Assembly: GCA_028751875.1 (NCBI GenBank)
Contig: CM054162.1
Location: forward strand, 7,380,456 to 7,444,455
Source of the DNA: Rapana venosa
Taxonomy: Eukaryota; Mollusca; Gastropoda; Neogastropoda; Muricidae
Direction of reading: 5' to 3'
DNA: 64,000 nucleotides
The notes beneath the pieces are model-generated. The model was not told where the DNA came from, searched no databases, and saw nothing but the letters and a program-made list of their open reading frames with translations. Below are positions 4,583-58,251 of this stretch, in pieces. The position numbers and the translations under genes are program-made. The stretch's first letter is position 1; every line of letters begins with the position of its first letter.

Positions 4583-4754
4583 CATGTTGGACAGCAACGA
4601 ATCGTCTTTTTTCTTGGGTTCATCTTCCTCCTCCCCGTATTATGCCGACAGTTCCTTTCCGTACCTCTGCCGTATACCACACCAGGACCTCAGTGCCGAG
4701 GCTACAAGGAACACACACAGTCCACACAAGCGTTGACACGTGATAGTCCAGTGC
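4583..4754 (-). CDS. PRDM9: PRDM9-like exon: C-terminal SET segment plus acidic/basic tail
   Basis: On the minus strand, after acceptor cgctcacttcag, the exon encodes GTEVLVWY followed, in a shifted frame, by RYGKEL and then EEEDEPKKKDDSLLSNM. In human PRDM9 the matching segment runs E-LLVWYG--YGQELGI, and the Tyr of VWY corresponds to catalytic Tyr357, so that residue is kept. Frame breaks occur next to VWY (about 4671-4674) and after YGKEL (about 4640-4647), where the alternative frame gives GI as in vertebrates. The donor is ATG followed by gttgtg. The N-terminal third (4700-4754) matches the family poorly. Copy B is identical. Confidence 0.72.
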
Positions 4755-6293
4755 CTGAAGTGAGCGGACGCTATAACATCTAGAGCTTCGAACCCACGTT
4801 CTGACAGACTCTGGGGCAGGGGCACGTTTCGAGCCTCTGCCTGAGGAGTCTGACTAAGAGGCCTTCCTTGGAGTTTTACATTGCAACGCTTTTGGAGTTG
4901 AAGGTTTATGGAGTAGGTCGTTGAGGGACGTTGTGGTGGACGCCAACCTGGGTGGGCGAAATCACTCAGTCTGGGCTCCGCGACTAGAGCAGATACTAAC
5001 TTCAGAATAGGGTTTATAGGCGAGTCATGAGCATGTCGCTCGGAAAAAGGCAACCAATGCACACAAGCAAAGCCACCCCAGCAGCAGTGCAATGCTGGTG
5101 GGGGCCCACGACGCCTGACACAGAGGGCATTCCCTGTAGACTCCGACCCTGGGTATATGCGACATAACGAACTGGTATGCTGGCGGGGGCGGCGAGATTG
5201 AAATGAGAGGCATGAAAACAGCAAGACAATGAGCTCACAGAAATGAGGCAGCACAAAACAAAATACCAAATCGGATACTGTCACCATTCCCCATAAACAA
5301 GGTTTAAATACTACCAACAGCCCATTTACCAAATAAAGGAGACTCTAAATCGAAGGTCGATGTGACATGCGCCAAAAAACCCCACATCCACCATTCACGA
5401 AGTGAAAGGTCAACCCTGAGTTAACTGGATAGGTCTACTTGAAACCTACCCTGCATGCACCCTGCTTATGGAGAGGGATGGCTCCGTCAAGTTCCAATGC
5501 TCCCACGACACCTAACTGAAAAAATCAGGGCAGTGCTCCAAAGACCCCTGCTGAAGTTGAGGGGGAAATCAAGTGTAGAATTCAAGCCAGGTCGCATGAC
5601 ATAATTATGGCTACAGCAGAGGGTACAACGGCGCTGTTTCTGCGTTTGTTTGGGGCGTTAACAGGGACACCATATGTGCCCATCTGGGCAATAAATGTTA
5701 AGACAGCTTCCAGTTTGAAGTTTCCAGCACTGATGCATTGTGAGTGTGTGAGTGTGTGTTGTTGTGTGTGTGAGTGTGTGTGTGTGTGTGTTTGTGTGAG
5801 TGTGTGTGTGGGTGCGTGCGTTATGCCCCGTGGGGGGGTTGTGTGTTGTTTTGTGTGTGTTTGGTACTGTCAGTCACTATATCACAGCAATAATAATCAC
5901 TTCACATTATTTAATTACCTGTATATCACAGTGGGACTCTGTAGTAACCCCTCCCCACAGTGTGGTAGTCCTGTCAAATCACAATATCAAACAACAAAAT
6001 AATGACTCACATATTTATTTACCTGTATATCACAGTGGGCTCTGTAAAACCTCTCCATAGTGTTAGTAGTCCGTCAGACCACTATATCACAACAATTTTT
6101 TAAATTTTAATGGACAGTATTTTATTTACGTTGTATAGCACAGTGAGCTCTGGAGTAAACATCTACCCAGTATTGGTAGCCTGCAGTCACTATATCACAG
6201 CAATAATAAGGCCACATTATTAATTACCTGTATATCACAGTTGGGCTCTGTATAAACCTCCCAACGAGTGTTTGGTAGCTGTCAGTCAAAAAA

Positions 6294-6324
<31 letters not shown>

Positions 6325-7602
6325 GAATGTATGAATTTAATATAGCGGTTTGGAATCTTGTATAAGCACCAAATCAAAGCGCTCAGATGACCTTTTTTAT
6401 CGAGGGATAATGGAATAACACTCGTGTGCTTTTTTACATTTACTCTCCGTGTGTATGCGCTTTTGTAAATTTTGTCATTTGTTCCCACCGGCATACAATG
6501 GCCTACTCTTTCGAAAAGCGGAACAGAATTTAACGTGTACGCATAATGTTCTGCATGCGTTCGCACACGGGGCCTCGGTTTATAGTCTCATCCGAAGAAT
6601 AATAATGAAAATAATTTAGCAATAATAACGACTCCCATTATTTAATTACCTGTATATCGCAGTGAGTTCTGTAGTAAACCTCCCCACAGTGATGGTAGTC
6701 TGTCAGTCACTACATCACAGCAATAATAATGACTCATATTATTTATTTACCTGTATATCACTGTGGGCTCTGTAGTAAACCTATCCACAGTGTTGGTAGG
6801 CTGTCAGTCACTACATCACAGCAATAATAATGACTCACATTATTTAATTATCTGTATATCACAGTGTAGTAAACCTCTCCACAGTGATGGTAGGCTGTCA
6901 GTCACTACATCACAGCAATAATAATGACTCACATTATTTAATTATCTGTATATCACAGTGAGCTCTGTAGTAAAACCTCCCCACAGTAGTTGGTAGGCTG
7001 TCAGTCCACTATATCACAGCAATAAGAATGGACCTCACATTATTTAATTACCTGTATATCACAGTGGGCTCTGTAGTAAACTCCCACATTGTGGAGGCCC
7101 GTCCAGTACTAAATATCACAGCAATAATAATCATCCCATTATAATTTACCTGTAGATCACAGTGGCCTCTGTAGTAAACCTCCCCACAGTGTTGTAGGGA
7201 CGCGTCACACTATATCACAGCAATAATAAACCCTCCCCACTCCACATTATTTAATTACCTGTATATCACAGTGGCTCTGTAGTAAAACCTCCCCACAAGT
7301 GTTTGGTAGGACCGTCACTTCTGTTCAGCCTGTCTGGCACAGTTCACGTATCTCATCCAGTTGGCTGTCTTGCATCTTTGCATCCACAAAGTAACTGTAC
7401 CTTACGTCTGTGCAAATCTGTGTTGACATATTCTAACATTGATAAAGTTTTAATACAACGATGATGTATTGGATATAAATCATTTCTTTAGCTCCTGTTA
7501 TCTATTGCATATATCAAATCAACAAAGAAGATTACACGAATCTTTGGCACTGAATTTATTGCCGAAAAGAGATGAAGCACACACAAAGCGACATACAGAC
7601 AA

Positions 7603-7635
<33 letters not shown>

Positions 7636-7661
7636 TAGAGAGAAGAGGAGAGAGAGAGAGA

Positions 7662-7700
<39 letters not shown>

Positions 7701-7752
7701 GAAGAGAGAGAGAGAAAAGAGAGAGATAAGAGAGAGAGAGAAAGAGAGAGAG

Positions 7753-7811
<59 letters not shown>

Positions 7812-10800
7812 CCTGCCCACAGAACAGACAAAGCAATGTTATCACAGGACCGTCCAAGCCAAAAATCACCTGGCAATAACTTACGTACCAGAAGTATTAG
7901 AAGAAATTGTCCACAATATCCAGTGAAAATAGCCACTAACATTCAGTTATTACCTATAGAAGTTTATGGAGTTCCTGACTCTGAAGCGAATTAAAGAGAG
8001 ATTACCTGTCTATGCCTAGCATTGTTTAGAAAAATAAACTATGAAATATGATAATGAAATACTAAGGCAACCCATTGTTCAATTGCGTTTGAGTACTGAA
8101 CCCATGATACTGCTGTATAACTAAGGCTACTATCAGGAGTTTCTAGGAGAATGAACGAAAAATGATTAACCTGGCAAAGAGTGACACATAAACAGCCCAC
8201 CTGTACAGCATGCAGCAACTAACACTGCGGTTACACGAGTTTTACCGCCAGCAGTATCCCGAGGAATGAGCTATGTCCGGTCAGGTGACACGACGTCCCG
8301 TAAGGTCCCAAGCGTAACGGGAGGGAAAAACTGGGTGGCAAACACTCCTAGTCCAGCGTTGGGGATCACTGACTCCTTTCACCCACAGACCTGGGGCAAA
8401 GTCTTCATGGCTCTCTGTGATCAGGTCGTTTCTTTTCTCCACCAGAAATAATCCAAGCGCAGTGATTTTCTGCTCGTTTGTTTTCGGGAAAAAATACTGT
8501 ACATGTAATCTGAAACAGTTTTCCGACTTAAAATTAAAAATTAACTCAGTCACGCATGGAGCATCTTTCTAAAGTATAATCGAGTCAATTCTTTTTTTTT
8601 TCATAAACTGTACACGACCTGAACATAATTATATATATATAAAATTGTGGAATACAGTTTCAATCTCCAGAGCATTAACCTTAGTTTTCACTTCATATGC
8701 AAGCGGTCTCATCTCCTGTACCCAAGGTATCATTAATATTTTTAGCAAATGTAATGCTTATCAAAATAAACGTTCCCCTAGGACATAAAACTTTTTAATA
8801 TACATTCGAATTCAAAATTCTTTTTCTTTCAAAGACAATAAATACAGGACTCGTGGTGCTTTTTTGTTTACATCCTATTCCCCTGTGCAATGCATGTTGT
8901 AAATTGAGTTATCTGTTTCTGCCACAGCCACACAATGGCCTACATTCACGGGCAAGTTTATATCAATTTTTTTTTTTCTCGTTTATCCCCCTAAGCTAAA
9001 GCTTCGAGGTTCACAAATGAATGCGATTTGTATATGCAACCGTTTTTATCCTTACGTAAGGTAGACTCCTTCCCAACAACGGATATATCATTAAATTGCT
9101 ATTGGTTGCATGACTGTGTAAAAATGAGTTGAGTGCAAATCGCTTTGATTAGTCTGAGCAACATACAGCGCAATACAATCCATTTATTATTAATATATAT
9201 CTCAAATAAAAAAGTGAGTGGGAAAAGTCGAAGATATAGGCATGTATCTCTAACATTTGTATTCTGTTCTAATTGAGATCTAAAAGAAATACGTAAAATT
9301 CTTTCTCCTCTTTCCTTCTTCTTCTTGTTTTCTTTTACAGAAGGAAAAATATCAAATTCTAGAACTTGACAGTGTTTCATATCATATTTCTGTGAAACCA
9401 GTTTTCTTTCTAAGCAATGTTTTAACAGAAGCCCGTGATATTTGTGACCACCTTACAGGAGTGTCCTCCACCACATGCAAAGGACCATTATGTTTTTAAT
9501 AGGAAAAGAACAGTCTCCTTGGATGGAACTCCAGATCACAAACGAACTCCTCACAATCTGGCACAACAATATTTTATGTATTTTAAGCATCTAGGCCCAA
9601 ACATACGTTTAAACAAAAAACTAGTGCTATAATCTTAGTAACCTCTGAATTGGCTTCTTTGGTCAAAACAATCTCTTACTGGCAAAACAACACAGATTCG
9701 TAGTTACTATTACATGTTTACACAACTTTGTAGTTAACATCTACATGACTAAAAACAAAAGTGTTTATTAATGAATTATTCTCGATTTCACATCCACTCT
9801 CTAGCTATGGTAAGAACTTTTCCTTCTCTTCATGTGCCAAGGTCTGTTGCAGACATCGGCGATCATGGCCCTTTAACCATTCTCTCTGTGCAGTTCTCCC
9901 GATGAGTTTCATTGTTGGGGATTCATTCCTCGTTGCGTAGACGTATTCAGAACTGTCTTGTGTTCTTTGTGCGTTTGTCTTCCTCTTCTTTGGTACCTAC
10001 AAATCTTTCCACACATATTTGCTTTTCTATTCCATCAGCTCAGTTTAATGTGCCAAAAAAACTGTAGTTGTCTTTTTCTGAATGGTTTTGAGTAAGGGTC
10101 TTTGTACCCGCATTTCCATGACTTCTTCGTTTGACTTCTTTCACTCCATGATATTCTCATAAATTCCTTCTGATAAACACATTTCTGCTGACTTCAAGTC
10201 TTCTTTCGAGGTCGATTGTCAGCGTGAACTTTCCAATTCCCGTAATCCGTGATGCGGCTACCTAAAGGTGGGTGGAAAAACGGTTACATGCGAACAAAAA
10301 ATCTCACCATAAGGGTAAACCTCGGATCTCTAGCGAGAACGAAAAGAAGAAGAAAAAAAAAGAACTCGAAAATCACAAGATTTATTACACTGAATAATTG
10401 TTCCTAAGACCCAGACTGTTAAGTTTTATGACTAAGGCTGTTGGTTCTTTGCCTCTCGCACAGTTGAAGTGGCTCAGATCTTACTTTTGGTAACACACAC
10501 ACCATCATATGAACGTAAGACATTACTATGTCCTGTTAAAGCAACATATAAAATTTCGTCCCGTCGTTTGGGAACTTCCAGTTTTCATGTAGTTCACTTC
10601 TTCCATCTCAGAAGAGTACACACGTCGTTCTTCTTTGGTTTCTCTGCTGTCTGTCCTGGTCTTCCTCTTGTTCGAACCACCTAGATTCCTGAACAAATCC
10701 AAAATAATGCAATACAGCTACTTCTGTTACTTTACTGTTGAACTCGTAGCAGAAATAAGTTCTGATTCTAAATCATTTACACACCGGAATCATTGAAATT

Positions 10801-12168
10801 TGCGTCTTTTTTTGCGTTCTGTTAAAAGACGCCTGCTTAAGTCCTATGCATGCACTGTTTAGAAAGAAGCAAAATGTGACAGACACTGTGGGGGCAGTGT
10901 TTTAAGCACTGAGTTACTCACTGGAAGATCATTGCCTTCAATCACATCATAGGCAAGGATGTTGTGTGTTGGGGGGGGGGGGGGGGGGGTAGAGGAAAAT
11001 GGGGTTACCCTGGATTTCTAACCATACAGATTTTTCTTGGGCTAACTGTACAAGAAGGACTGGGGTCCACACAGCAATCATTATTCCTTCTGACAACTGT
11101 GCCTTTGTAAAAGTTGTGTTTTGAGAAAATCGCAATGCTAATAGTTTACTAAGTTAGGACAAAAAAGCGCATGGATTAAAGGGGAAAAAAAAAAAAAACC
11201 AACAACGGGCCTCCCTCTACATACACCCAGCGAATCAAAAATTATTTGTGGAGACTGGGGCTTATAAAATTATGATGAAGTATGGACTGATCTGTGTAAA
11301 AGATAAGAGAACACAGAAAGATCAGGAAAAAAAAGAAAAAAAGAAATATGTGAAAGAAAAGGGTCGATTTCTAGCAAAATAAATTCCAGAAAATGGGAAT
11401 ACAACTCATACCGATAGAGCCCGACGTATCCTAACCAGAAGAAACTAGCTAGATAACTAATATTACAGGTGGAAGAAATTACCTGTTCTTAAGATAAACG
11501 TTTCCTCAAGAAAAGATTTATGTAAAGATTAAGAGTAGCTGCTGTTAACAATGTAGATGAAATGAATAAGTATTAGTAGCAGGTGTTTTCATTATTGTTT
11601 ATTAGGCACATACATGTGTAAAGTTTCAAGCAATATCAAAACAAGACAAAGAAAGTGCCTAAAAGCCAATACAGAGTATGGCTATGTTAAGCCCAACGAA
11701 ACATTGTAGACGTTTAACTTTGAAACAAGCAAAGATGCAAGAACAAATTAGTTTATGACCGAGAATAAAACTGACTTTAATACCAGAGATCATTGGCAAG
11801 TACCGTTGTGTACTCATGTATGTGCACACACAACACGCGCGCGCGCGCGCGCAAACACACACACCAACACACACACACACACTCACACACCGAGTTGCCT
11901 GTGCGACGTGACTGTTGCTGACGGAGGACGGAATGGCGGACGCCATGGCTTTGGCCCTGATAGTCAGAAATAAAGGTTTAAAATGTTGAAAGAAGTAAAC
12001 ATATAAACACAAACCTGGAATGCAAGAAACAAACTAAACAATACACAAATCAACCCAAATCTATACATTACTTCCACGTGATGAAAGCAACATGATAGGT
12101 AGGCTCAATCAGATCACATACTTCTTAATATACACAACGGTTTCAGAGAGTGAGAGGATAGATAAGAG

Positions 12169-12202
<34 letters not shown>

Positions 12203-12230
12203 TAAACTAAAGACAAGGAGAGAGAGAGAA

Positions 12231-12278
<48 letters not shown>

Positions 12279-14496
12279 AGAGAGAGACAGAGAGAGAGAA
12301 GAGAGAGAAGAGAGAGAGAGGAGAGAGAGAGAGAGAAGAGAGAGAGCATTTACAAGGCACATAAACACAAAAAACAGAGAAGAGAAAAAGCAAGACGAAA
12401 GCTTATAAAAGAATTAGGAGCGTTTTCTCCTATTGACACATCTATCAGTTTCACTGCACTGTCTTCCTATAACACTGCCAGAGACATTTATACCGACAGA
12501 CTCTGAAACTGTGGGTGTAGCTATGGTGTTAAAGCGCAAAACCATTCATTTGGAGTTTTTTGTTTGGATTTGTTTGTGTTTAGTCTTTGTTTAGTTGTTG
12601 TTGTTTATTTGTTTTGTTTTGGGGTTTTTTTTGGTTTTTGTGTGTTTTTTTTTTTGGGGGGGGATGTTTGGGGGGGGGTGGGGGGGGGGTGGGGGGTAGG
12701 GGGAATAGTCTGCAGCCTAGTAGTTATGGATGTTGACCTGGAGATCTGATGGCCCGGCATTAAGCTACCACCGAGGCACCCGTTCGAAGGGATTTTTCCC
12801 CCTGGAGTTAACACCAGTACTGACTGACTCTACTCCCCAGAAAGTTCGGCAGATGAGACTATAAACCGAAATACCCTGTGCAGACGCACGCAGAGCATTT
12901 TGCACACACATTAAAACCAGTTTTGCCTCTCGGAACAGTGGGCCAGCGGGTGCCAGTAAGAAGGGATGCCAACATGTTAAACAGCGCATGGACGCTGGTG
13001 TCGCCTTTAGACATCATCCCCAAAGTCGGAATGCGGCTATCTTCACGGTGGGCAAAAAGAGCCACGTCTGGTACGCAAAAATCTCACCATCGGTGAACTT
13101 CCGGGCTCTAGCTCCGGAGCTATGTTTTAAGCTTTGAACTAGGCCCGCTGAAAAAAAGCTAGAATGCTCAACTTAAGAAACTTATAATTATGGATAATTT
13201 TTATGTAATTCCACTGCCTAATTACGATTTTATCGAGAAGATTTAATAAAGTATGAAAGTATCAAATATTTCCTCCAAGCCTATTTCCTGATTAAGTGTT
13301 TATACTAATCACTACAGTAAGATGGAGGCTGACTGCACTGATGCCCCTAGATGCTGATAATTATATTAATCATATATATAAAATAGCCAGAAAAATTGAT
13401 ACATCCTCCTGTCCTACCACCTCCTTATTTTTCTGTCCGCGACCAAGCTCTGTGGCATGTACTGATAGAAATCTATCATACTATATTCCCCCAACTCCAC
13501 TGGTAGGAAATCTTCACACTTATATTTTCTCCAATTCAATCTTCCAACTTAAAGATATTCTCTCCAACACCACTACCGAATCGGATATAGATCTACATCT
13601 GGGTCTGATAAATGAATTGAATATCTAATGCGCAAGCATGTTCAAAGGCAGAAAACAGCAGTAAACAAAGGCTTATTCTCTCATTCCACCAACAGGTTTG
13701 CGTTTGTCATGCACTAAGATAATGAATTTAATAAAGAAGAAAAAACTACGATAAAACATTTTCCAGACCCACTCCTTCGCTTCGCTTCCGCTTTAGCTTA
13801 AACCCCCTTTTGCTGAAGAAGTAAAACTTAAATTAACTACCTTCTCTAATCCCAAAACATTTGTCATACAATGTCTAATGTACTTTGGGATTAAATTTTT
13901 TTTTAAATCATGTTGCTTTGTGCGTTCCCCAGCTTTACATCCTGGGGGTCACCCAGAACATGCTACACTCTGACTCACTCATCATCCCACCTGGGAATCA
14001 CTGTGAGATAGGAAGTACACCGGATGAGAGGTTTGCGTGTATGACTCTGTTCAAGTACCTCGCCATACAGGCAGCCATACTCCGACTTCAGAGGATTTTT
14101 TTCATCTTTAAAGGAGAGTGCACGTTGTTATGTTAAGAGTTTGTCATGGTTGAAGGCAGTCTCAACACAACATTTCTACAACATAACAACATTTTAGTGT
14201 AGGCCTTGGCAATTAGCCGACATCAATAACTGACACAGCTTTTGGCCTGGGCCAAGAAAATCAACTTATCGTCCATTCCGTCTACCTGCTTTACGTTTTG
14301 CCCTTGGCCGCCACTCCTCATCAGACTCAGGCTCAAGGTGGTCGTTCACCGACTGTCTAGGTCTGCCCCAGTTGGGCTTCATAAAGTCGGGTTTCAGAGC
14401 TGGTAAACCGGTACACACACACACACACACACAAAGAAAAAACACACACACACACACACACACACATACACTCACACGCACACACACAACACACAC

Positions 14497-14551
<55 letters not shown>

Positions 14552-15043
14552 AACATATCCACTGAAGAGGTGGGAGAGATTCAATTAGTTTAATTGCCTC
14601 TTATCCCTTATACAAAAATTGATCCACTTTGAAATTAAAAAACTTTGTGGAATGTATGATTTTAAAACAACTGTGGACCACCAACTCAAAAGAAATCGTC
14701 TGTTTGTCATTCATTAGCAAAAACTGCTTCTAGTCTGGACATGTCAAAGAGTACACTTTACTGTCACGGAAAACTAAGTGGAAGACTTTTTCCTCTTTTT
14801 TCGACTATTCAAACAAACGGTTTTAATACTGAAATTGTGAAGAAAATGTGGAAAAATATCTAAACCATAAATTCAATATTGCCATATACTTTTAACTTGA
14901 TTGGCAAAGAACGCGTCACTCCCCCAATAAGAAACGACCAAATTGCAACCGAAATATTCTAGACCTAAAGACGGAAGGAACCGAACACCCAATTAGTAGA
15001 ACTCTAGGAAAACTCAACACACACAACACACAACACACACAAT

Positions 15044-15077
<34 letters not shown>

Positions 15078-16303
15078 CACCACACACACATTCTTCTTCT
15101 TCTTAATCCCTTTAGCTCCTAGCGGAGCATAGCATATTTTTAATTTCACTGCATGATGATTATCAAGAAAAGGATGACAAAGAATGTGTAGATATTTAGT
15201 TTACCTTGAGATCAAGTTATGAGCACTTAATGTGCTGAAAGTTTCCTCACAAAAATTTCACGGCCTGAATCAAGTACAGCAGATATAAGCACCTGCATTC
15301 ACGTTATTATTAAGTATATGTTGAAGTCTTCAAAATTTTCAGTCTGATAGGACTATGGCTCAGAGCAGGGATTTCAATCTGCCTCTACAGCTTAGTAGTG
15401 GGTTTTTTTGTTGTTGAAGAGAAGATTTCAGCGTATAGATCTACTTGATCACAACATACAGCACTAGAAATCATTTAAAGGATCCAGAATGAATGCAGGG
15501 CCTCTTTTTTCAGAAATCTCATGGCGGCACAACATCAGCAGTTGACTGCAAGTAGGGAGAGAGAGTGTGTGTTTATCAAACCTGACTAAGCTGTGTATGG
15601 TGAGGCTGGGATGACGGACTGTAGCAGCATCACAGAGATGCGTGCAGTAACATTAAAAGAAACAGAAAACAAACCAATTCAACCAGAAAAATATTGCAAA
15701 CGTGTAGCAAGATTCACTATACATAGTAAATCTTCTTTGTCGAACTTTCAGACAGCAACTATTGTCTATCACATGAGCGAAAATGCGTTGCGCTATCATG
15801 AAGCGCCTGACAAGTCTGGGTCATCCCATTTCGGCTTCGTTTTTGGTTTTGATCAGTAATAAACGAAGAGAGGAAAAAATAAAGCTGTTGTTTTAGTTGA
15901 AAAAGGTATGTTAAATTCAAAGTAAACTAGTCCAAGCGGTATACAAAATGTTGATTTGATATATAATTTTGGCATAGGTACACACCACTATGTTTGACCA
16001 AAAAAAATTATTAAAAAAAAAAATACAACAATGCACATTTATTCTTTTACACTTTTCTGTTGCATCAACTTTATCTCTCTTAACTTTTTCTCCAAGCACT
16101 GAAGTCATTTTTAGATATCACGCATTACTTTCACTGCACACTTGACCGCATTTATACTTACCAAACTTCAACATCATTTCATAGTTCAGGCGCAAATTTT
16201 TAAAGCGCAGTTTCTCCAAGTCACACATGTTCTTGTATTCTTCCTTGGAGAAGAACTCTTCAATAGACGTGTCAGTCTCCACATTGCTAAAATCGTACTT
16301 TTC
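4583..16303 (-). CDS. PRDM9: PRDM9-like histone methyltransferase gene, copy A (multi-exon span)
   Basis: Reading from 16303 down to 4583 on the minus strand, I find KRAB, SSXRD, linker, zinc knuckle and a PR/SET domain split over three exons, the order in vertebrate PRDM9 (Meisetz). PRDM9 trimethylates histone H3 at K4 and K36 in meiotic prophase nuclei and, through a C-terminal C2H2 array, places recombination hotspots. KRAB and SSXRD are protein-interaction modules. KRAB and SSXRD exons join in phase 1 with good splice sites, and SSXRD joins the 11.9-kb linker exon in phase. The knuckle and SET exons carry 1-2-nt frame breaks, so as written the protein is not continuous. They also appear unchanged in copy B. 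No first exon with a start codon and no zinc-finger array was found in the window. Alternatives are a decayed paralogue or an intact gene with consensus errors. Confidence 0.8.
4780..5300 (+). repeat. Dispersed repeat related to 16870-17393
   Basis: The sequence around 4915-5250 aligns by eye, at perhaps two-thirds identity, with the reverse complement of 16930-17300. Shared landmarks include gagggacgttg, tcagtctgg followed by cgcgactagagc, ggcccacgacg and gacataac. It is therefore an interspersed repeat, probably the body of a SINE or short non-autonomous element. A long minus-strand open frame over 4640-5332 is a by-product and not a gene. Confidence 0.55.
5735..5870 (+). repeat. GT-rich microsatellite
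   Basis: Imperfect (gt)n with interspersed ga and gc steps, e.g. gagtgtgtgtgtgtgtgt. It leads directly into the 100-bp tandem array. Confidence 0.9.
5865..7318 (+). repeat. ~100-bp tandem repeat array (about 12 units)
   Basis: Units of about 100 bp recur with landmarks tatatcacagcaataataa, then ttaattacctgtatatcaca, then ctctgtagtaaacc and ccccacagtg. The landmark cagcaataat occurs near 5885, 6199, 6718, 6819, 6912, 7016, 7119 and 7218. The array is interrupted by a SINE at about 6290-6600. It ends exactly at the donor site of SET exon 2 of the PRDM9-like gene (7319). Unit-to-unit divergence is mostly small indels. Confidence 0.9.
6290..6600 (-). mobile_element. SINE with AAG/TTC tail, inserted in the tandem array
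   Basis: Read on the minus strand, the element contains tcggatgagactataaacc, a conserved block also present near 12855 and 38175, then a body ending gcgctttgatttgg, and finishes in a (ttc)n tail, seen on the plus strand as (aag)n at 6293-6324. The 3' end resembles many invertebrate SINE/LINE tails that run into 'ctatataaat'. It splits the 100-bp array, so it is younger than the array. Confidence 0.75.
7319..7417 (-). CDS. PRDM9: PRDM9-like exon: central SET segment
   Basis: After acceptor tcaacacag the minus strand reads ICTDVRYSYFVDAKMQDS and then, in a frame shifted by a missing 2 nt at about 7361-7366, ANWMRYVNCARQAEQ. This aligns residue for residue in length with the vertebrate PRDM9 segment ending WANWMRYVNCARDDEEQN, including the conserved Asn-Cys of the cofactor/substrate region. 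The donor is AA followed by gtgacg, in a phase consistent with an Asn codon at the junction as in vertebrates. The intron begins immediately with the 100-bp tandem array. Copy B is identical. This is one of the clearest domain matches in the window. Confidence 0.85.
7593..7808 (+). repeat. GA microsatellite
   Basis: About 215 bp of imperfect (ga)n. It generates several spurious long open frames (Arg/Glu and Leu/Ser repeats). It also marks the point where inverted copy C stops (about 59840). Confidence 0.97.
8246..8436 (-). CDS. PRDM9: PRDM9-like exon: N-terminal SET segment
   Basis: On the minus strand the exon reads ESHEDFAPGLWVKGVS, then (2 nt missing at about 8366-8370) VIPNAGLGVFATQFFPP, then after another break (8298-8310) a GPYG-like stretch, and finally SSGYCW before donor gtaaaa. 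Vertebrate PRDM9 has LPPGL, IP-AGLGVW, FGPYEG and GYSW in this order, so the match is specific to the PR/SET fold. The acceptor may be at 8436 (ttctggtggag) or 8414 (tgatcacag). A missing G at the donor (CGG-gtaaaa written as CG-gtaaaa) would restore phase with the next exon. Copy B is identical, breaks included. Confidence 0.82.
8437..9084. other. Intronic AT-rich sequence, nothing recognised
   Basis: The stretch has several short T or AT runs (8592-8602, 8630-8642, 8968-8979). I see no coding signal, RNA gene or repeat family with a second copy outside A and B. Confidence 0.4.
9085..9200 (+). repeat. Retroelement 3'-tail remnant
   Basis: It contains tattggttgcatgactgtgt followed by gagttgagtgcaa and gctttgatta. 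The same string with minor changes lies at 49078-49165, ahead of a (ttc)n run and behind a CR1/L2/Rex-type LINE C-terminus. I therefore read this as a solitary 3' tail of that LINE or of a SINE that borrows it. Confidence 0.6.
9452..9557 (-). CDS. PRDM9: PRDM9-like exon: zinc knuckle before the SET domain
   Basis: The minus strand, after acceptor gttgtgccag, reads DCEEFVCDLEFHPRR and later, in a shifted frame, HNGPLHVVEDTPV, ending at donor AAG followed by gtggtc. Vertebrate PRDM9 has a C-x-x-C knuckle followed by HGPPTFVKDSAV just ahead of its SET domain. The spacing between the Cys motif and the GPLHVVEDTPV motif is longer here and includes a frame break and an in-frame stop near 9490. The first Cys pair is not clearly placed and may lie in the preceding exon or be split by an error. 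The position between the linker and SET exons supports the call. The plus-strand open frame over this exon is an antisense shadow. Confidence 0.62.
9790..10240 (-). mobile_element. RTE/BovB-like LINE, 3' end of ORF2
   Basis: The reverse strand reads, across frames, MRISWSERSQTKKSW, then PFRKRQLQFFWHIK, then MIADVCNRPWHMKRRKS before a stop near 9808. This is the standard carboxy-terminal tail of RTE-type LINE polymerases (a -RISW- block, RQLQF-GH, then a terminal -MIADV- block). It is 5'-truncated and lies in a PRDM9-like intron in the same orientation as that gene. Confidence 0.75.
10225..10375 (+). mobile_element. SINE 3' fragment (same family as 12720-13140)
   Basis: It shares gatgcggctacctaaaggtg and aaaaaatctcaccat with 13030-13100 and ends in an aagaagaag-type tail. 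It is a short fragment of the SINE family whose fuller copy is at 12720-13140. Confidence 0.55.
10546..10680 (-). CDS. PRDM9: PRDM9-like linker exon upstream of the zinc knuckle
   Basis: On the minus strand, after acceptor ttcctgaatctag-like sequence ending ctag (10681-10684), an open frame reads SNKRKTRTDSRETKEERRVY then SSEMEEVNYMKT. Vertebrate PRDM9 has a basic KKETERKMYSLRERKG stretch followed by a Tyr-x-Glu-Val motif and an acidic segment before the knuckle. The order, charge and -Y-S-x-x-x-x-x-V-N-Y- spacing fit. The last 40 nt could read PNDGDEILY with a frame shift, matching the acidic -DDDYLYC- that precedes the knuckle. The donor is placed at gttgct (weak). The evidence is moderate because linkers evolve quickly. 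Confidence 0.55.
10970..10990 (+). repeat. Poly-G run
   Basis: About 20 consecutive G, matched in copy B (27383-27402). Confidence 0.95.
11822..11890 (+). repeat. CA/CG dinucleotide microsatellite
   Basis: (ca)n with an internal (gc)n run of about 16 nt (11837-11852). It abuts the donor site of the exon at 11891. Confidence 0.95.
11891..11956 (-). CDS. PRDM9: PRDM9-like linker exon after SSXRD
   Basis: The acceptor tttctgactatcag lies at the 11957 side and the donor g-gtgtgtgag at the 11890 side. Joined to the phase-1 end of the SSXRD exon, it reads GPKPWRPPFRPPSATV, comparable to the short KPPWMALR segment that follows SSXRD in vertebrate PRDM9. Copy A is 66 nt and has lost two T residues relative to copy B (68 nt, 28301-28368), in which the frame is open to the donor. 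The copy A breaks therefore look like consensus errors. A degraded version is in copy C (57170-57229). Confidence 0.6.
12147..12348 (+). repeat. GA microsatellite
   Basis: About 200 bp of imperfect (ga)n in an intron, duplicated in B (28559-28762) and present as CT in C (about 56780-56905). Confidence 0.97.
12555..12715 (+). repeat. T/G-rich low-complexity tract
   Basis: Runs of T and G (tttggggg, gggggtgggggg) form a strand-asymmetric tract ahead of the SINE at 12720. Confidence 0.9.
12720..13140 (+). mobile_element. SINE, fullest copy of a multi-copy family
   Basis: It contains a head with tcgaaggg (weak B-box like), the block gatgagactataaaccg, the middle gcacacacattaaaacc, and a 3' part with gtcggaatgcggctatcttc and aaaaatctcaccatcgg. 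Related copies are at 6290-6600 (-), 10225-10375, 42100-42425 (-) and the B/C duplicates (29133-29553; about 56040-56470, -). It is also related to the head-to-middle part of the element at 38030-38457. No target-site duplication was resolved. Confidence 0.65.
13141..14285. other. Intron, no recognised feature
   Basis: AT-rich sequence with no domain or RNA gene recognised. A minus-strand open stretch at about 13995-14115 (KSEYGCLYGEVLEQ and onward) is open for some 40 codons but matches nothing I know. A and B differ by dense indels at 13330-13600 and 14030-14280, so the consensus is unreliable here. Confidence 0.4.
14286..14399 (-). CDS. PRDM9: PRDM9-like exon: SSXRD domain
   Basis: The minus strand, after acceptor gtttaccag, gives a 114-nt open exon ending at donor GCAG-gtagac. 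Joined in phase 1 to the KRAB exon, it reads ALKPDFMKPNWGRPRQS, then VNDHLEPESDEEWRPRAKRK. SSXRD in vertebrate PRDM9 and the SSX proteins has the same core: R-P-x-F-M, a basic patch, then D-S-D-E-E-W-x-P-R. The DEEW core is intact. In SSX proteins this domain mediates chromatin/nucleosome binding and repression. In copy B the exon has grown to 118 nt by scattered insertions and is out of frame; in copy C it is partly legible at 54871-54983. Confidence 0.9.
14412..14551 (+). repeat. CA microsatellite
   Basis: About 140 bp of (ca)n with interruptions, starting 12 nt from the SSXRD acceptor. The polypyrimidine tract of that acceptor on the minus strand is therefore a (tg)n run. Confidence 0.97.
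15019..15092 (+). repeat. CA microsatellite
   Basis: (ca)n with a few interruptions. Length differs slightly from copy B (31444-31515). Confidence 0.95.
15590..15870 (+). repeat. Dispersed repeat carrying a spurious 88-codon open frame
   Basis: The segment cagacagcaactattgtcta at about 15750 and the following 110 nt reappear, diverged, at 37180-37200 and 37507-37590, where a SINE has inserted into the middle. The open frame here (starting MYGEAGMTDCSSITEM) is conserved only because copies A and B are near-identical. I treat it as repeat-derived and not a gene. Confidence 0.55.
16162..16303 (-). CDS. PRDM9: PRDM9-like exon: KRAB domain
   Basis: A complete 142-nt exon on the minus strand has a strong acceptor (gcttttgtttcag) and donor (TTTG-gtaagt). 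It is open throughout and encodes EKYDFSNVETDTSIEEFF, then SKEEYKNMCDLEKLRFKNLR, then LNYEMMLKFG. It matches the KRAB domain of PRDM9: F-T-K-E-E-W, then M-x-D-W-E-K-x-R-x-R-N, then N-Y. The Trp of the canonical EEW is Tyr here. The exon ends in phase 1 and joins SSXRD in frame. PRDM9-type KRAB contributes to protein contacts in meiosis rather than acting as a strong TRIM28 repressor module. Copy B is identical (32589-32730); copy C is degraded (53162-53298). The upstream first exon was not found. Confidence 0.9.
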
Positions 16304-20978: not shown

Positions 20979-21150
20979 CATGTTGGACAGCAACGAATCG
21001 TCTTTTTTCTTGGGTTCATCTTCCTCCTCCCCGTATTATGCCGACAGTTCCTTTCCGTACCTCTGCCGTATACCACACCAGGACCTCAGTGCCGAGGCTA
21101 CAAGGAACACACACAGTCCACACAAGCGTTGACACGTGATAGTCCAGTGC
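20979..21150 (-). CDS. PRDM9: PRDM9-like C-terminal SET exon, copy B
   Basis: Identical to 4583-4754, with GTEVLVWY and RYGKEL in different frames. Confidence 0.72.
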
Positions 21151-22693
21151 CTGAAGTGAGCGGACGCTATAACATCTAGAGCTTCGAACCCACGTTCTGA
21201 CAGACTCTGGGGCAGGGGCACGTTTCGAGCCTCTGCCTGAGGAGTCTGACTAAGAGGCCTTCCTTGGAGTTTTACATTGCAACGCTTTTGGAGTTGAAGG
21301 TTTATGGAGTAGGTCGTTGAGGGACGTTGTGGTGGACGCCAACCTGGGTGGGCGAAATCACTCAGTCTGGGCTCCGCGACTAGAGCAGATACTAACTTCA
21401 GAATAGGGTTTATAGGCGAGTCATGAGCATGTCGCTCGGAAAAAGGCAACCAATGCACACAAGCAAAGCCACCCCAGCAGCAGTGCAATGCTGGTGGGGG
21501 CCCACGACGCCTGACACAGAGGGCATTCCCTGTAGACTCCGACCCTGGGTATATGCGACATAACGAACTGGTATGCTGGCGGGGGCGGCGAGATTGAAAT
21601 GAGAGGCATGAAAACAGCAAGACAATGAGCTCACAGAAATGAGGCAGCACAAAACAAAATACCAAATCGGATACTGTCACCATTCCCCATAAACAAGGTT
21701 TAAATACTACCAACAGCCCATTTACCAAATAAAGGAGACTCTAAATCGAAGGTCGATGTGACATGCGCCAAAAAACCCCACATCCACCATTCACGAAGTG
21801 AAAGGTCAACCCTGAGTTAACTGGATAGGTCTACTTGAAACCTACCCTGCATGCACCCTGCTTATGGAGAGGGATGGCTCCGTCAAGTTCCAATGCTCCC
21901 ACGACACCTAACTGAAAAAATCAGGGCAGTGCTCCAAAGACCCCTGCTGAAGTTGAGGGGGAAATCAAGTGTAGAATTCAAGCCAGGTCGCATGACATAA
22001 TTATGGCTACAGCAGAGGGTACAACGGCGCTGTTTCTGCGGGTTTGTTTTGGGGGCGTTAACAGGGACACCATATGTGCCCATCTGGGCAATAAATGTTA
22101 AGACAGCTTCCAGTTTGAAGTTTCCAGCACTGATGCATTGTGAGTGTGTGAGTGTGTGTTGTTGTGTGTGTGAGTGTGTGTGTGTGTGTGTTTGTGTGAG
22201 TGTGTGTGTGGGTGCGTGCGTTATGCCCCGTGGGGGGGTTGTGTGTTGTTTTGTGTGTGTTTGGTACTGTCAGTCACTATATCACAGCAATAATAATCAC
22301 TTCACATTATTTAATTACCTGTATATCACAGTGGGACTCTGTAGTAACCCCTCCCCACAGTGTGGTAGTCCTGTCAAATCACAATATCAAACAACAAAAT
22401 AATGACTCACATATTTATTTACCTGTATATCACAGTGGGCTCTGTAAAACCTCTCCATAGTGTTAGTAGTCCGTCAGACCACTATATCACAACAATTTTT
22501 TAAATTTTAATGGACAGTATTTTATTTACGTTGTATAGCACAGTGAGCTCTGGAGTAAACATCTACCCAGTATTGGTAGCCTGCAGTCACTATATCACAG
22601 CAATAATAAGGCCACATTATTAATTACCTGTATATCACAGTTGGGCTCTGTATAAACCTCCCAACGAGTGTTTGGTAGCTGTCAGTCAAAAAA

Positions 22694-22724
<31 letters not shown>

Positions 22725-24012
22725 GAATGTATGAATTTAATATAGCGGTTTGGAATCTTGTATAAGCACCAAATCAAAGCGCTCAGATGACCTTTTTTAT
22801 CGAGGGATAATGGAATAACACTCGTGTGCTTTTTACATTTACTCTCCGTGTGTATGCGCTTGTAAATTTTGTCATTTGTTCCACACGAAAAAAATAACAT
22901 ACAATGGCCTACTCTTTCGAAAAGCGGAACAGAATTTAACGTGTACGCAAAATTTTCTGCATGCTTTCGCACACGGGGCCTACTCGGTTTATAGTCTCAT
23001 CCGAAGAATATAATGAAATAATTTAGCAATAATAACGACTCCCATTATTTAATTACCTGTATATCGCAGTGAGTTCTGTAGTAAACCTTCCCACAGTGAT
23101 GGTAGTCTGTCAGTCACTACATCACAGCAATAATAATGACTCATATTAATTATTTAACCTGTATATCAATGTGGGCCTCTGTAGTAAACCTATCACATGT
23201 TGGTAGGCTGTCATCACTACATCACACAATAATAATGACGCACATTAATTTTAATTATCTGTATATCACACAGTGGTATAAACCTCTCCACAGTGATGTA
23301 AGGGCTGTCAGTCACTACATCACAGCAATAATAATGACTCACATTATTTAATTATCTGTATATCACATTGAGCTCTGTAGTAAAACCTCCCCACAGTAGT
23401 TGGTAGGCTGTCAGTCCACTATATCACAGCAATAAGAATGGACCTCACATTATTTAATTACCTGTATATCACAGTGGGCTCTGTAGTAAACTCCCACATT
23501 GTGGAGGCCCGTCCAGTACTAAATATCACAGCAATAATAATCATCCCATTATAATTTACCTGTAGATCACAGTGGCCTCTGTAGTAAACCTCCCCACAGT
23601 GTTGTAGGGACGCGTCACACTATATCACAGCAATAATAAACCCTCCCCACTCCACATTATTTAATTACCTGTATATCACAGTGGCTCTGTAGTAAAACCT
23701 CCCCACAAGTGTTTGGTAGGACCGTCACTTCTGTTCAGCCTGTCTGGCACAGTTCACGTATCTCATCCAGTTGGCTGTCTTGCATCTTTGCATCCACAAA
23801 GTAACTGTACCTTACGTCTGTGCAAATCTGTGTTGACATATTCTAACATTGATAAAGTTTTAATACAACGATGATGTATTGGATATAAATCATTTCTTTA
23901 GCTCCTGTTATCTATTGCATATATCAAATCAACAAAGAAGATTACACGAATCTTTGGCACTGAATTTATTGCCGAAAAGAGATGAAGCACACACAAAGCG
24001 ACATACAGACAA

Positions 24013-24045
<33 letters not shown>

Positions 24046-24071
24046 TAGAGAGAAGAGGAGAGAGAGAGAGA

Positions 24072-24110
<39 letters not shown>

Positions 24111-24162
24111 GAAGAGAGAGAGAGAAAAGAGAGAGATAAGAGAGAGAGAGAAAGAGAGAGAG

Positions 24163-24221
<59 letters not shown>

Positions 24222-27200
24222 CCTGCCCACAGAACAGACAAAGCAATGTTATCACAGGACCGTCCAAGCCAAAAATCACCTGGCAATAACTTACGTACCA
24301 GAAGTATTAGAAGAAATTGTCCACAATATCCAGTGAAAATAGCCACTAACATTCAGTTATTACCTATAGAAGTTTATGGAGTTCCTGACTCTGAAGCGAA
24401 TTAAAGAGAGATTACCTGTCTATGCCTAGCATTGTTTAGAAAAATAAACTATGAAATATGATAATGAAATACTAAGGCAACCCATTGTTCAATTGCGTTT
24501 GAGTACTGAACCCATGATACTGCTGTATAACTAAGGCTACTATCAGGAGTTTCTAGGAGAATGAACGAAAAATGATTAACCTGGCAAAGAGTGACACATA
24601 AACAGCCCACCTGTACAGCATGCAGCAACTAACACTGCGGTTACACGAGTTTTACCGCCAGCAGTATCCCGAGGAATGAGCTATGTCCGGTCAGGTGACA
24701 CGACGTCCCGTAAGGTCCCAAGCGTAACGGGAGGGAAAAACTGGGTGGCAAACACTCCTAGTCCAGCGTTGGGGATCACTGACTCCTTTCACCCACAGAC
24801 CTGGGGCAAAGTCTTCATGGCTCTCTGTGATCAGGTCGTTTCTTTTCTCCACCAGAAATAATCCAAGCGCAGTGATTTTCTGCTCGTTTGTTTTCGGGAA
24901 AAAATACTGTACATGTAATCTGAAACAGTTTTCCGACTTAAAATTAAAAATTAACTCAGTCACGCATGGAGCATCTTTCTAAAGTATAATCGAGTCAATT
25001 CTTTTTTTTTTCATAAACTGTACACGACCTGAACATAATTATATATATATAAAATTGTGGAATACAGTTTCAATCTCCAGAGCATTAACCTTAGTTTTCA
25101 CTTCATATGCAAGCGGTCTCATCTCCTGTACCCAAGGTATCATTAATATTTTTAGCAAATGTAATGCTTATCAAAATAAACGTTCCCCTAGGACATAAAA
25201 CTTTTTAATATACATTCGAATTCAAAATTCTTTTTCTTTCAAAGACAATAAATACAGGACTCGTGGTGCTTTTTTGTTTACATCCTATTCCCCTGTGCAA
25301 TGCATGTTGTAAATTGAGTTATCTGTTTCTGCCACAGCCACACAATGGCCTACATTCACGGGCAAGTTTATATCAATTTTTTTTTTTCTCGTTTATCCCC
25401 CTAAGCTAAAGCTTCGAGGTTCACAAATGAATGCGATTTGTATATGCAACCGTTTTTATCCTTACGTAAGGTAGACTCCTTCCCAACAACGGATATATCA
25501 TTAAATTGCTATTGGTTGCATGACTGTGTAAAAATGAGTTGAGTGCAAATCGCTTTGATTAGTCTGAGCAACATACAGCGCAATACAATCCATTTATTAT
25601 TAATATATATCTCAAATAAAAAAGTGAGTGGGAAAAGTCGAAGATATAGGCATGTATCTCTAACATTTGTATTCTGTTCTAATTGAGATCTAAAAGAAAT
25701 ACGTAAAATTCTTTCTCCTCTTTCCTTCTTCTTCTTGTTTTCTTTTACAGAAGGAAAAATATCAAATTCTAGAACTTGACAGTGTTTCATATCATATTTC
25801 TGTGAAACCAGTTTTCTTTCTAAGCAATGTTTTAACAGAAGCCCGTGATATTTGTGACCACCTTACAGGAGTGTCCTCCACCACATGCAAAGGACCATTA
25901 TGTTTTTAATAGGAAAAGAACAGTCTCCTTGGATGGAACTCCAGATCACAAACGAACTCCTCACAATCTGGCACAACAATATTTTATGTATTTTAAGCAT
26001 CTAGGCCCAAACATACGTTTAAACAAAAAACTAGTGCTATAATCTTAGTAACCTCTGAATTGGCTTCTTTGGTCAAAACAATCTCTTACTGGCAAAACAA
26101 CACAGATTCGTAGTTACTATTACATGTTTACACAACTTTGTAGTTAACATCTACATGACTAAAAACAAAAGTGTTTATTAATGAATTATTCTCGATTTCA
26201 CATCCACTCTCTAGCTATGGTAAGAACTTTTCCTTCTCTTCATGTGCCAAGGTCTGTTGCAGACATCGGCGATCATGGCCCTTTAACCATTCTCTCTGTG
26301 CAGTTCTCCCGATGAGTTTCATTGTTGGGGATTCATTCCTCGTTGCGTAGACGTATTCAGAACTGTCTTGTGTTCTTTGTGCGTTTGTCTTCCTCTTCTT
26401 TGGTACCTACAAATCTTTCCACACATATTTGCTTTTCTATTCCATCAGCTCAGTTTAATGTGCCAAAAAAACTGTAGTTGTCTTTTTCTGAATGGTTTTG
26501 AGTAAGGGTCTTTGTACCCGCATTTCCATGACTTCTTCGTTTGACTTCTTTCACTCCATGATATTCTCATAAATTCCTTCTGATAAACACATTTCTGCTG
26601 ACTTCAAGTCTTCTTTCGAGGTCGATTGTCAGCGTGAACTTTCCAATTCCCGTAATCCGTGATGCGGCTACCTAAAGGTGGGTGGAAAAACGGTTACATG
26701 CGAACAAAAAATCTCACCATAAGGGTAAACCTCGGATCTCTAGCGAGAACGAAAAGAAGAAGAAAAAAAAAGAACTCGAAAATCACAAGATTTATTACAC
26801 TGAATAATTGTTCCTAAGACCCAGACTGTTAAGTTTTATGACTAAGGCTGTTGGTTCTTTGCCTCTCGCACAGTTGAAGTGGCTCAGATCTTACTTTTGG
26901 TAACACACACACCATCATATGAACGTAAGACATTACTATGTCCTGTTAAAGCAACATATAAAATTTCGTCCCGTCGTTTGGGAACTTCCAGTTTTCATGT
27001 AGTTCACTTCTTCCATCTCAGAAGAGTACACACGTCGTTCTTCTTTGGTTTCTCTGCTGTCTGTCCTGGTCTTCCTCTTGTTCGAACCACCTAGATTCCT
27101 GAACAAATCCCAACTAATGCAATACAGCTACTTCTGTTACTTTACTGTTGAACTCGTAGCAGAAATAAGTTCTGATTCTAAATCATTTACACACCGGAAT

Positions 27201-28581
27201 CATTGAAATTTGCGTCTTTTTTTGCGTTCTGTTAAAAGACGCCTGCTTAAGAAGTCCAATGCATGCACTGTTTTAGAAAGAAAGCAAAAAGTGACAGACA
27301 CTGTGGGGGCATGTTTTAGCACTGATTTACTCACGGAAGATCATTGCCTTCAATCACATCATAGGCAAGGATGTTGTGTGTTGGGGGGGGGGGGGGGGGG
27401 GTAGAGGAAAATGGGGTTACCCTGGATTTCTAACCATACAGATTTTTCTTGGGCTAACTGTACAAGAAGGACTGGGGTCCACACAGCAATCATTATTCCT
27501 TCTGACAACTGTGCCTTTGTAAAAGTTGTGTTTTGAGAAAATCGCAATGCTAATAGTTTACTAAGTTAGGACAAAAAAGCGCATGGATTAAAGGGGAAAA
27601 AAAAAAAAAACCAACAACGGGCCTCCCTCTACATACACCCAGCGAATCAAAAATATTTTGGAGACTGGGGCTTATAAAATTAATATGAAGTATGGACTGA
27701 TCTTGTGTAAAAGATAAGAGAACACAGAAAGATCAGAAAAAAAGAAAAAAAGAAATATGTGAAAGAAAAGGGTCGATTTCTAGCAAAATAAATTCCAGAA
27801 AATGGGAATACAACTCATACCGATAGAGCCCGACGTATCCTCACCAAAAGAAACTAGCTAGATAACTAATATTACAGGTGGAAGAAATTACCTGTTCTTA
27901 AGATAAACGTTTCCTCAAGAAAAGATTTATGTAAAGATTAAGAGTAGCTGCTGTTAACAATGTAGATGAAATGAATAAGTATTAGTAGCAGGTGTTTTCA
28001 TTATTGTTTATTAGGCACATACATGTGTAAAGTTTCAAGCAATATCAAAACAAGACAAAGCAAAGTGCCTAAAAGCCAATACAGAGTATGGCTATATTAA
28101 GCCCAACGAAACATTGTAGACGTTTAACTTTGAAACAAGCAAAGATGCAAGAACAAATTAGTTTATGACCGAGAATAAAACTGACTTTAATACCAGAGAT
28201 CATTGGCAAGTACCGTTGTGTACTCATGTATGTGCACACACAACACGCGCGCGCGCGCGCGCAAACACACACACCAACACACACACACACACTCACACAC
28301 CGTAGTTGCCTGTGCTGACGTGACTGTTGCTGACGGAGGACGGAATGGCGGACGCCATGGCTTTGGCCCTGATAGTCAGAAATAAAGGTTTAAAATGTTG
28401 AAAGAAGTAAACATATAAACACAAACCTGGAATGCAAGAAACAAACTAAACAATACACAAATCAACCCAAATCTATACATTACTTCCACGTGATGAAAGC
28501 AACATGATAGGTAGGCTCAATCAGATCACATACTTTCTTAATATACAAAACGGTTTCAGAGAGTGAGAGGATAGATAAGAG

Positions 28582-28615
<34 letters not shown>

Positions 28616-28643
28616 TAAACTAAAGACAAGGAGAGAGAGAGAA

Positions 28644-28691
<48 letters not shown>

Positions 28692-30930: not shown

Positions 30931-30985
<55 letters not shown>

Positions 30986-31469
30986 AACATATCCACTGAA
31001 GAGGTGGGAGAGATTCAATTAGTTTAATTGCCTCTTATCCCTTATACAAAAATTGATCCACTTTGAAATTAAAAAACTTTGTGGAATGTATGATTTTAAA
31101 ACAACTGTGGACCACCAACTCAAAAGAAATCGTCTGTTTGTCATTCATTAGCAAAAACTGCTTCTAGTCTGGACAATGGTCAAGAGTACACTTACTGTCA
31201 CGGAAAACAAAGTGGAAGACTTTTTCTCTTTTTTCGACTATCAAACGTTTTAATACCTGAAATTGTGAAGAAAATGTGGAAAAATATCTAAACCATAAAT
31301 CAATATTGCCAGTATACTGTTTAGAATAGCAAAGAACGCGTCAACTCCCCCAATAAGAAACGAGCCAAATTGCAACCGAAATATTCTAGACCTAAAGACG
31401 GAAGGAACCGAACACCCAATTAGTAGAACTCTAGGAAAACTCAACACACACAACACACAACACACACAA

Positions 31470-31517
<48 letters not shown>

Positions 31518-50072: not shown

Positions 50073-51460
50073 TACTTCATGGATTTTATTTTTTGCAGGG
50101 TTACTGTTGCTGAAATATCGGCCTATTTCAGCATAAGAAATGGATTCTACAAACTTTTTTCCAGTAAGTATACCCCAGTTTACGTTGGTTTAAATACAAT
50201 TACAAATTTAGAATATTCCAGCAGTTTTTAAGTCAGAAGATGATTCATGAATATAATCTAACAGCTTTACACCAAGGCCAACTTCGCAGAAGTACAATGG
50301 TCTGTGGATGAGTGGTTCCAAACTTCAGCTGGCGTGTGTACTTTCAATACAGGTCACACTCCACCTTAAACTTCAAGGTGAATTAGTATCTTCTGTAAAG
50401 TGCAAGTCAGAAAATGTTTTGCTGATTTTGAGAGATTCTTTAAAGGATGAAAAATGCACTGTTTCCTAGTTTTTTGAGATTTTGGACATAAAGCAATACC
50501 GGGTGGCCATGAGAAAGTTGGAAATTATCATCAAATGATTGCATGAGTCCTACAGCGTTGACCCAGCGCATGCATATTGCTAGCAGACGATTGAGGACTG
50601 AGTTGAGGGGGTACAGTGTTTGCTAAAAAACTGAAACCTACTAAATTTGCGCAAAATCGTGAGTTTTGAGGATAGTCTGTCAGAGAAAGTGGTTCATAGT
50701 TATTTCTGTGGATGCCTTAGTACGTTTGATATATGATGTATTCCTATGTGCAGGGACTAGATATAAAGAAGCACATGGGTGCTCATTCATTATCCTCTAA
50801 ATAAAAGACAAGAATTTGTCATTGTCATTGATATAAATGCAAGAGTAATATAGGAAAACAGACGGAAAAATAGCAAAATTTGAAGGTGGTGTGTAGCCTA
50901 GAGGCTGCCTTGGTGAATGTGGGTGGGTGGGAGTGGAGTCTTTTCAAGGGACACAGCAGTTATTTTATATTTTTATATTTTTAATATATTTTTATATATT
51001 TATTTATATAAAATATATATATTTTATAAAAGCAATGCGAAAGTTTTATTCATTATAGGCCTTGGCCCCTCATGAAGGGGGTGCGTTTATATAATAAATT
51101 CCCAAAAAATTGATAAGAAACTTTATAACAAAGAATAATAGTGCCATTTTTCTTTATAAACATTTTTTCCTTTCCTTGTTTTGAAAACCACCAAAGAAAT
51201 CACAAAAATTTTGAACCCCAGTTTTTGATACCCAATTTTTTTTTCCCTTTTTATCAAAATTTTTTAACATTGTATCTTTTTTTGGAAAACCGGAAAACCA
51301 AAACAACCACGGGGGGAATTAAATAATGGAAGCCATTTTTGATAAAAGAAGGGGTTTTAAGCCCCAGAAAAAGGCAAAAAATGAATTTTTTAAGGAGAGA
51401 GTAGAGAAAAGGAGAGGAGAGAAGGGGGAAAAAGGAGAGAGAGAGTAAAGAGAGAGAGAT

Positions 51461-58204: not shown

Positions 58205-58251
<47 letters not shown>

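Follow-up and report, generated by a model that had tools for sequence, protein, structure and literature searches.

The window, that is, the whole 64-kb stretch of Rapana venosa DNA that was analysed (C29:7380456-7444455, on chromosome 29), carries on its minus strand, between positions 4583 and 16303, a series of exons that encode, in this order, a KRAB-related part, an SDEEW stretch, a linker, an SSXRD-equivalent part, a zinc knuckle, and a PR/SET domain divided over three exons. We refer to this series as copy A1; two further copies in the window, A2 and E, together with a copy C outside it (C29:7168.8-7177.4 kb), are assigned to the same locus, A, while a second locus, B, lies at C29:21746.6-21774.4 kb. 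The features of the window are listed below; positions are those of the window, and the splice boundaries of the exons were set by eye.

16162..16303, minus strand: KRAB-related exon (EKYDFSNV...LNYEMMLKFG), open; 35 amino acids align to human PRDM9 31-65
14286..14408, minus strand: open SDEEW exon, located between the KRAB and SSXRD parts; corresponds in alignment to about residues 65-102 of human PRDM9
11899..11956, minus strand: linker exon (PKPWRPPFRPPSATVTS...); one-base gap relative to A2 and C
10546..10688, minus strand: SSXRD-equivalent exon, frameshifted in A1; EEQRVYSFRKRKEVNYMKLEVPNDDEFI in B and C
9457..9557, minus strand: zinc-knuckle exon, noisy in A1; CEECDQEFQGDCPQHGPLHEVED in B and C
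8246..8442, minus strand: PR/SET exon 1 (IPNAGLGVF ... GPY), frameshifted in A1, open at B, with one 1-base gap at C
7259..7407, minus strand: PR/SET exon 2 (NWMRYVNCA ... VYYRA), frameshifted in A1, with an internal stop in the tblastn match
5861..7317, minus strand: tandem repeat of about 100 bp that joins the 3' half of SET exon 2, with its GT donor, to the first part of the following intron
4590..4701, minus strand: PR/SET exon 3 (VLVWY, YGKEL), frameshifted in A1, open at locus B; 3' end approximate
20986..32737, minus strand: copy A2, with the same exons as A1, within a duplicated block (20386-35772) that matches 4001-19364
51435..59825, plus strand: copy E, a third copy, inverted, very noisy and partial, beyond a 500-N gap; identifiable exons: KRAB, SDEEW, and linker

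All seven peptides quoted in the sequence-only reading of this DNA (KEEYKNM, LEKLRF, SDEEW, GPLHVVEDTPV, IPNAGLGVF, NWMRYVNCA, and VLVWY) occur on the minus strand, in the same order, and the exon series that it described is largely confirmed. Its domain labels need correction, as the SDEEW exon is not SSXRD; the SSXRD counterpart is instead the exon at about 10546-10688 that had been called a linker, which we identify as such because its version in B and C aligns to the stretch of human PRDM9 that Pfam recognises as SSXRD (residues 171-201, directly before the knuckle). The order of the proposed eight-exon gene also holds, although frameshifts disrupt the SSXRD-equivalent, knuckle, and SET exons of the window copy, which in its printed form does not encode an intact protein. 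The KRAB-related exon is identical in A1 and A2, and the SDEEW exon of A1 encodes the same protein as its counterpart at locus B. At locus A (A1, A2, and C), the linker exon ends before a GC (window 11897-11898), a possible GC donor, where locus B has GT. Judged by its donor pattern, the repeat of about 100 bp has some 10 units; it is also present at locus B and could give rise to cryptic exons.

Residues 1-411 of human PRDM9 were compared with the window by tblastn, with rows retained at E up to 1. Seven rows were obtained: the KRAB exon at A1 and, about 16.4 kb higher, at A2 (E 1.4e-4), the SDEEW exon at A1 only (E 0.059), the NWMRYVNCA exon at A1 and A2 with an internal stop (E 1.1e-4), and two chance-like matches on the opposite strand (E 0.53). 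As controls, the reversed window yielded two rows (E 0.18), and reversed copy C and reversed locus B none. Against 2000 shuffles each, the pairwise scores to human PRDM9 stood at z 13.6 for the KRAB exon and 7.4 for the SDEEW exon (both A1), and, with the letters of B and C, at 14.4 for the SSXRD-equivalent exon and 17.2 for the knuckle. The zinc knuckle profile (PF18445) scored 26.1 bits, against a cut-off of 25.8, on the 94-aa sequence from B and C; it fell below the cut-off in the 608-aa composite (18.7 bits), as it did in human PRDM9 itself (18.5).

The sequence-only reading had named failure of profile searches to find KRAB and SSXRD as grounds against itself, and these profiles did fail: neither matched the snail sequences (window pieces, composite, or the version from B and C), while both recognised human PRDM9 (KRAB 30.8 bits, SSXRD 60.4 bits). 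Genome-wide, the Pfam KRAB profile hit weakly at three places, one of them over the cut-off and the best at E 0.52; none is the window gene. When 10 pieces of the window were scanned singly with Pfam, no PRDM9 domain passed the cut-off, and the one row obtained was PRDM2_PR (E 0.2); a PDB search with the KRAB and SDEEW protein found nothing related (one row, E 1.2), and Rfam had no match in the window. The failure of the KRAB and SSXRD profiles counts against the assignment to PRDM9, but it is in our view outweighed by the colinear pairwise matches to human PRDM9, which are clear.

The SET domain was assembled as a composite of locus B and window exon 2, whose frame breaks were bridged by eye; the window exon was needed since locus B has N in place of the first half of its own SET exon 2. 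This composite matched 15 PDB sequences, of which the best three are PRDM9 (107 bits, E 5.5e-30), ahead of PRDM14 (77.5 bits, 8e-21), PRDM12 (68.7 bits, 4e-18), and PRDM11 (62.4 bits, 3.5e-16). Among the solved PRDM structures, the composite is thus closest to PRDM9. It is identical to PRDM9 at 68 of 135 aligned positions and retains the tyrosines matching human Y276, Y341, and Y357, the catalytic tyrosines used by Baker et al. (PMC5519329).

Locus B lies 14 Mb from the window on the same chromosome. Its exons (C29:21755.9-21774.4 kb, minus strand) are of the same type as those of locus A, with introns that are largely different. About 8 kb downstream of these exons, on the same strand, is an isolated finger-like unit with a weak likeness to human (z 3.2), followed by C2H2 finger units of 84 bp. 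TRF reported 6.7 copies at 94% matches and a second row of 1.9 copies; the array has seven units that conform to the finger pattern and about 11 that are legible by eye if frame breaks are bridged. The interval from SET exon 3 to the fingers contains endonuclease and reverse-transcriptase ORFs, three with Pfam hits, one of these below the cut-off. Given that exons and fingers are colinear on one strand, the array probably belongs to the locus B gene, to which it would be joined by splicing. An array was found downstream of the SET exons of locus B; for locus A, none was seen in the window or the fetched flanks, much of the flank beside the window being N. A KRAB zinc-finger protein (KRAB and fingers without SET) was also considered and rejected, as the SET exons lie between KRAB and the fingers. 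Elsewhere on the chromosome, a finger stretch with an internal stop (C29:15932644-15932829) is 81% identical to the locus B array, and is perhaps a relic of another PRDM9 copy.

Overall, the proposal that a mollusc genome carries the N-terminal architecture of PRDM9 largely stands, given the colinear exons, a SET domain nearest to PRDM9, the array at locus B, and an N-terminal half that, in the letters of locus B, matches human PRDM9 at BLASTP E 1e-30 (69 of 232 columns identical). We therefore consider it highly probable that the window contains a genuine PRDM9-family gene viewed through a noisy assembly, and that at least two such loci, A and B, are present on chromosome 29. What is not supported is novelty: a mollusc Prdm9 has been in print since 2009 (PMC2779102), the PRDM9-type KRAB has been traced to Protostomia (PMC8835667), and full-length PRDM9 copies are reported from many metazoans (PMC11703093). 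The window gene is a further member of an already known gene type.

The exons of the two loci were compared by dN/dS, with locus A represented by the letters of A1 or C and codons at gaps omitted. Over 242 codons, there are 14 synonymous and 5 nonsynonymous differences (dN/dS 0.096), which suggests purifying selection, although unevenly distributed. The KRAB exon differs from B by 7 synonymous to 1 nonsynonymous changes in A1 (dN/dS 0.025) and by 4 to 2 in C (0.10), the linker by 5 to 1 (0.06), and the SDEEW exon not at all, whereas the SSXRD-equivalent, knuckle, and SET1 exons together show 2 synonymous to 3 nonsynonymous differences (dN/dS 0.44, with a dS of only 0.02). Constraint is thus apparent in these alignments for the KRAB part and not for the SET part. 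The uneven dS suggests exon conversion between the loci or mixing of haplotypes, and either may distort dN/dS.

We then considered the diversity of the fingers at their DNA-contact residues, using the share of amino-acid diversity at positions -1, 2, 3, and 6, the statistic of Baker et al. (PMC5519329). In units 1-7 of locus B, 55% of the diversity falls at contact positions (expected 14%; hypergeometric p 0.01), and in units 2-6, which were picked after inspection, 81% (expected 14%; p 0.005). For comparison, 10 other arrays were hand-picked from a list in which 150 of 2965 candidates had been scored. When each array is represented by its most homogeneous run of four or more units, B has a share of 0.73 at 96.2% DNA identity; eight of the 10 controls have such a run, with shares of 0.23-0.43 and DNA identities of 61-88%, and two have none. 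Over all seven pattern-intact units of B, divergent ends included, the share is 0.291, third of the 11 arrays and within the control range of 0.186-0.322, with two controls exceeding B (0.30 and 0.32 vs. 0.29). The contact-residue signal therefore appears to be limited to the homogenised part of the array, where the units are few.

Mammalian PRDM9 sets where chromosomes exchange pieces. By analogy, the snail gene, if spliced and expressed as its exons predict, would produce a protein that binds DNA through a changeable finger array, with a SET domain that would trimethylate H3K4 and H3K36 on nearby nucleosomes and KRAB-related and SSXRD parts that would recruit partners; the outcome would be the choice of meiotic break sites. 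A possible partner was sought with the Pfam zf-CW profile, which found seven places in the genome, all over the cut-off, of which five were fetched. At the best of these (C3:55889811-55889957), the CW part is nearest to ASHH2 (1.1e-11) and then ZCWPW2 (6e-11), with further matches to MORC3 (2.8e-9) and ZCWPW1 (1.5e-8). The CW finger is followed by what looks like the start of a PWWP domain, and the place is a candidate ZCWPW2 relative. The fullest picture that could be drawn, in which this gastropod uses PRDM9-directed recombination with a contact-variable array, a ZCWPW2-like reader, and two same-chromosome loci between which gene conversion swaps exons, seems unlikely to be right in all its parts, and we offer it tentatively. 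Nonetheless, a whelk with a full-length candidate, a homogenised array, and a candidate CW reader makes a role of PRDM9 in recombination beyond vertebrates testable by testis ChIP-seq.

An appreciable possibility, although one that we lean against, is that the protein, while a methyltransferase of the PRDM9 family, has no part in directing recombination; Baker et al. argue this for partial orthologues in fish. The share over all seven pattern-intact fingers, which does not leave the control range, is consistent with this, as is the reported high expression of surf-clam Ml-PRDM9 in the blastula, which suggests that mollusc PRDM9 is not only meiotic. However, the KRAB-related part, the SSXRD equivalent, the catalytic tyrosines, and the array are all present in the snail, the share in the homogeneous run reaches 0.73-0.81, and Baker et al. 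link the complete domain set to fast finger evolution (PMC5519329).

Further copies were sought across the 2.28-Gb assembly. With the KRAB and SDEEW protein, 11 rows were obtained. The KRAB exon accounts for four places, all on C29 (two in the window, C29:7168787, and C29:21774281), and the SDEEW exon for another four, of which two are degenerate (E 0.005 and 0.08); the remaining three rows, located elsewhere, are weak (E above 1). SET exon 1 gave eight rows at five places, namely locus B, copy C, A1, A2, and C32. The lone copy on C32 (1476883-1477075) has a frame break and adjoins a 500-N gap, with no other recognised exons within 10 kb.

Within the window, the locus is present three times (A1, A2, and the inverted E), and this is probably in part assembly duplication. 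The block at 4001-19364 and its counterpart at 20386-35772 are 98.3% identical over 15466 columns, with 78 mismatches and 143 gap openings. Aligned over 14 kb, A1 and A2 differ by 137 indels, of which 118 are single-base and 83 are one-base runs beside an identical base. The differences are unevenly placed: none occurs in window kilobases 7-9, which suggests shared reads there, while kilobase 14 has 50 indel columns and 15 mismatches, indicating that the two copies were not built wholly from one consensus. Copy E shows about 77-84% identity in its aligned pieces, with gap openings exceeding mismatches. The 500-N gap (window 39914-40413) has inverted versions of one region on either side, as two assembled haplotypes placed side by side would give. 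The assembly, built from PacBio reads with wtdbg2 and Pilon, is reported to have a heterozygosity of 1.41%, with coverage by short reads over 78.51% of the sequence (59.70% at depths above 10x), and is described as that of a highly heterozygous genome in which haplotig purging was required (PMC10432487).

It is possible that A1 and A2 are instead a real tandem duplication, leaving two KRAB-SSXRD-SET genes, one possibly fingerless, although we consider this rather unlikely. The occurrence of a 15.4-kb block twice in one contig at that identity, with so few mismatches, would fit such an event, as would the concentration of differences in kilobase 14. Yet in kilobases 7-9 the two copies share, without any difference, breaks that are absent from B and C, as if built from the same reads; contig 2 holds the region once, inverted; and the heterozygosity and purging described for the genome also speak for duplication in assembly.

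With regard to the frame breaks, the damage is patchy and differs from copy to copy. The SDEEW exon is clean in A1 and broken in A2, C, and E, while for the KRAB exon E alone is broken, A1, A2, and C being clean. In the SSXRD-equivalent, knuckle, and SET1 exons, A1 and A2 share breaks, whereas C and B closely agree and are in frame save for single-base gaps in C. Between C and A1, there are 147 mismatches and 217 gap openings over 3525 columns, and introns are damaged as exons are. Because the damage is patchy and indel-rich, and because B and C are mostly in frame at the same exons, the breaks of the window copy look like unpolished long-read noise. That locus A is a true decayed PRDM9 pseudogene, recently tandem-duplicated, with locus B alone working, is quite improbable: the SET-exon frameshifts common to A1 and A2, their identity in kilobases 7-9, and the lack of a visible array (beside flanks that are partly N) would agree with it, but the exon-by-exon pattern of damage, the nearly clean state of C where A1 is broken, an excess of gap openings over mismatches unlike ordinary decay, and a dN/dS of about 0.1 in the readable exons all argue against it. 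The preferred reading remains a PRDM9-family gene in a noisy assembly, and it carries a warning: unpolished long-read stretches can yield apparent pseudogenes and possibly false tandem copies.

Among the listed titles of open-licence papers, from searches in which Rapana and PRDM9 were not combined, none concerned PRDM9 in Rapana, and none tested PRDM9-directed recombination in a mollusc. In other molluscs, the family is documented. Oliver et al. (2009, PMC2779102) describe concerted evolution of Prdm9 fingers in the gastropod Lottia as well as in Capitella and Nematostella; the Lottia gigantea gene has 23 fingers and is represented by a male-gonad EST, that is, a gastropod germline transcript. 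It thus resembles the snail gene in belonging to a gastropod and in its homogenised finger array, and differs in finger number (23 vs. the 7 pattern-fitting or about 11 readable units of locus B), a comparison made by description only. In bivalves, the available parts of the oyster and surf-clam papers (PMC12111275, PMC9716669, PMC10451705) describe Prdm9 and Zcwpw2 as high in the oyster male gonad, and PRDM9 of the surf clam Mulinia, a protein with 10 fingers, as testis-specific and also high in the blastula; these are molluscan relatives as well, but from bivalves, and the N-terminal domain is absent from those descriptions. Within the wider family, PRDM11 is a PR/SET relative of PRDM9 to which the snail SET domain is less similar (62 bits vs. 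107 bits to PRDM9). Finally, vertebrate PRDM9 (Meisetz) shares with the snail a KRAB-related part, an SDEEW stretch, SSXRD, a zinc knuckle, PR/SET, and fingers in the same order, with half of the compared SET residues identical and the three catalytic tyrosines kept in the snail composite. The snail differs in having a shorter linker between the SDEEW and SSXRD parts, KRAB and SSXRD parts that Pfam does not recognise, and endonuclease and reverse-transcriptase ORFs before the fingers of locus B.
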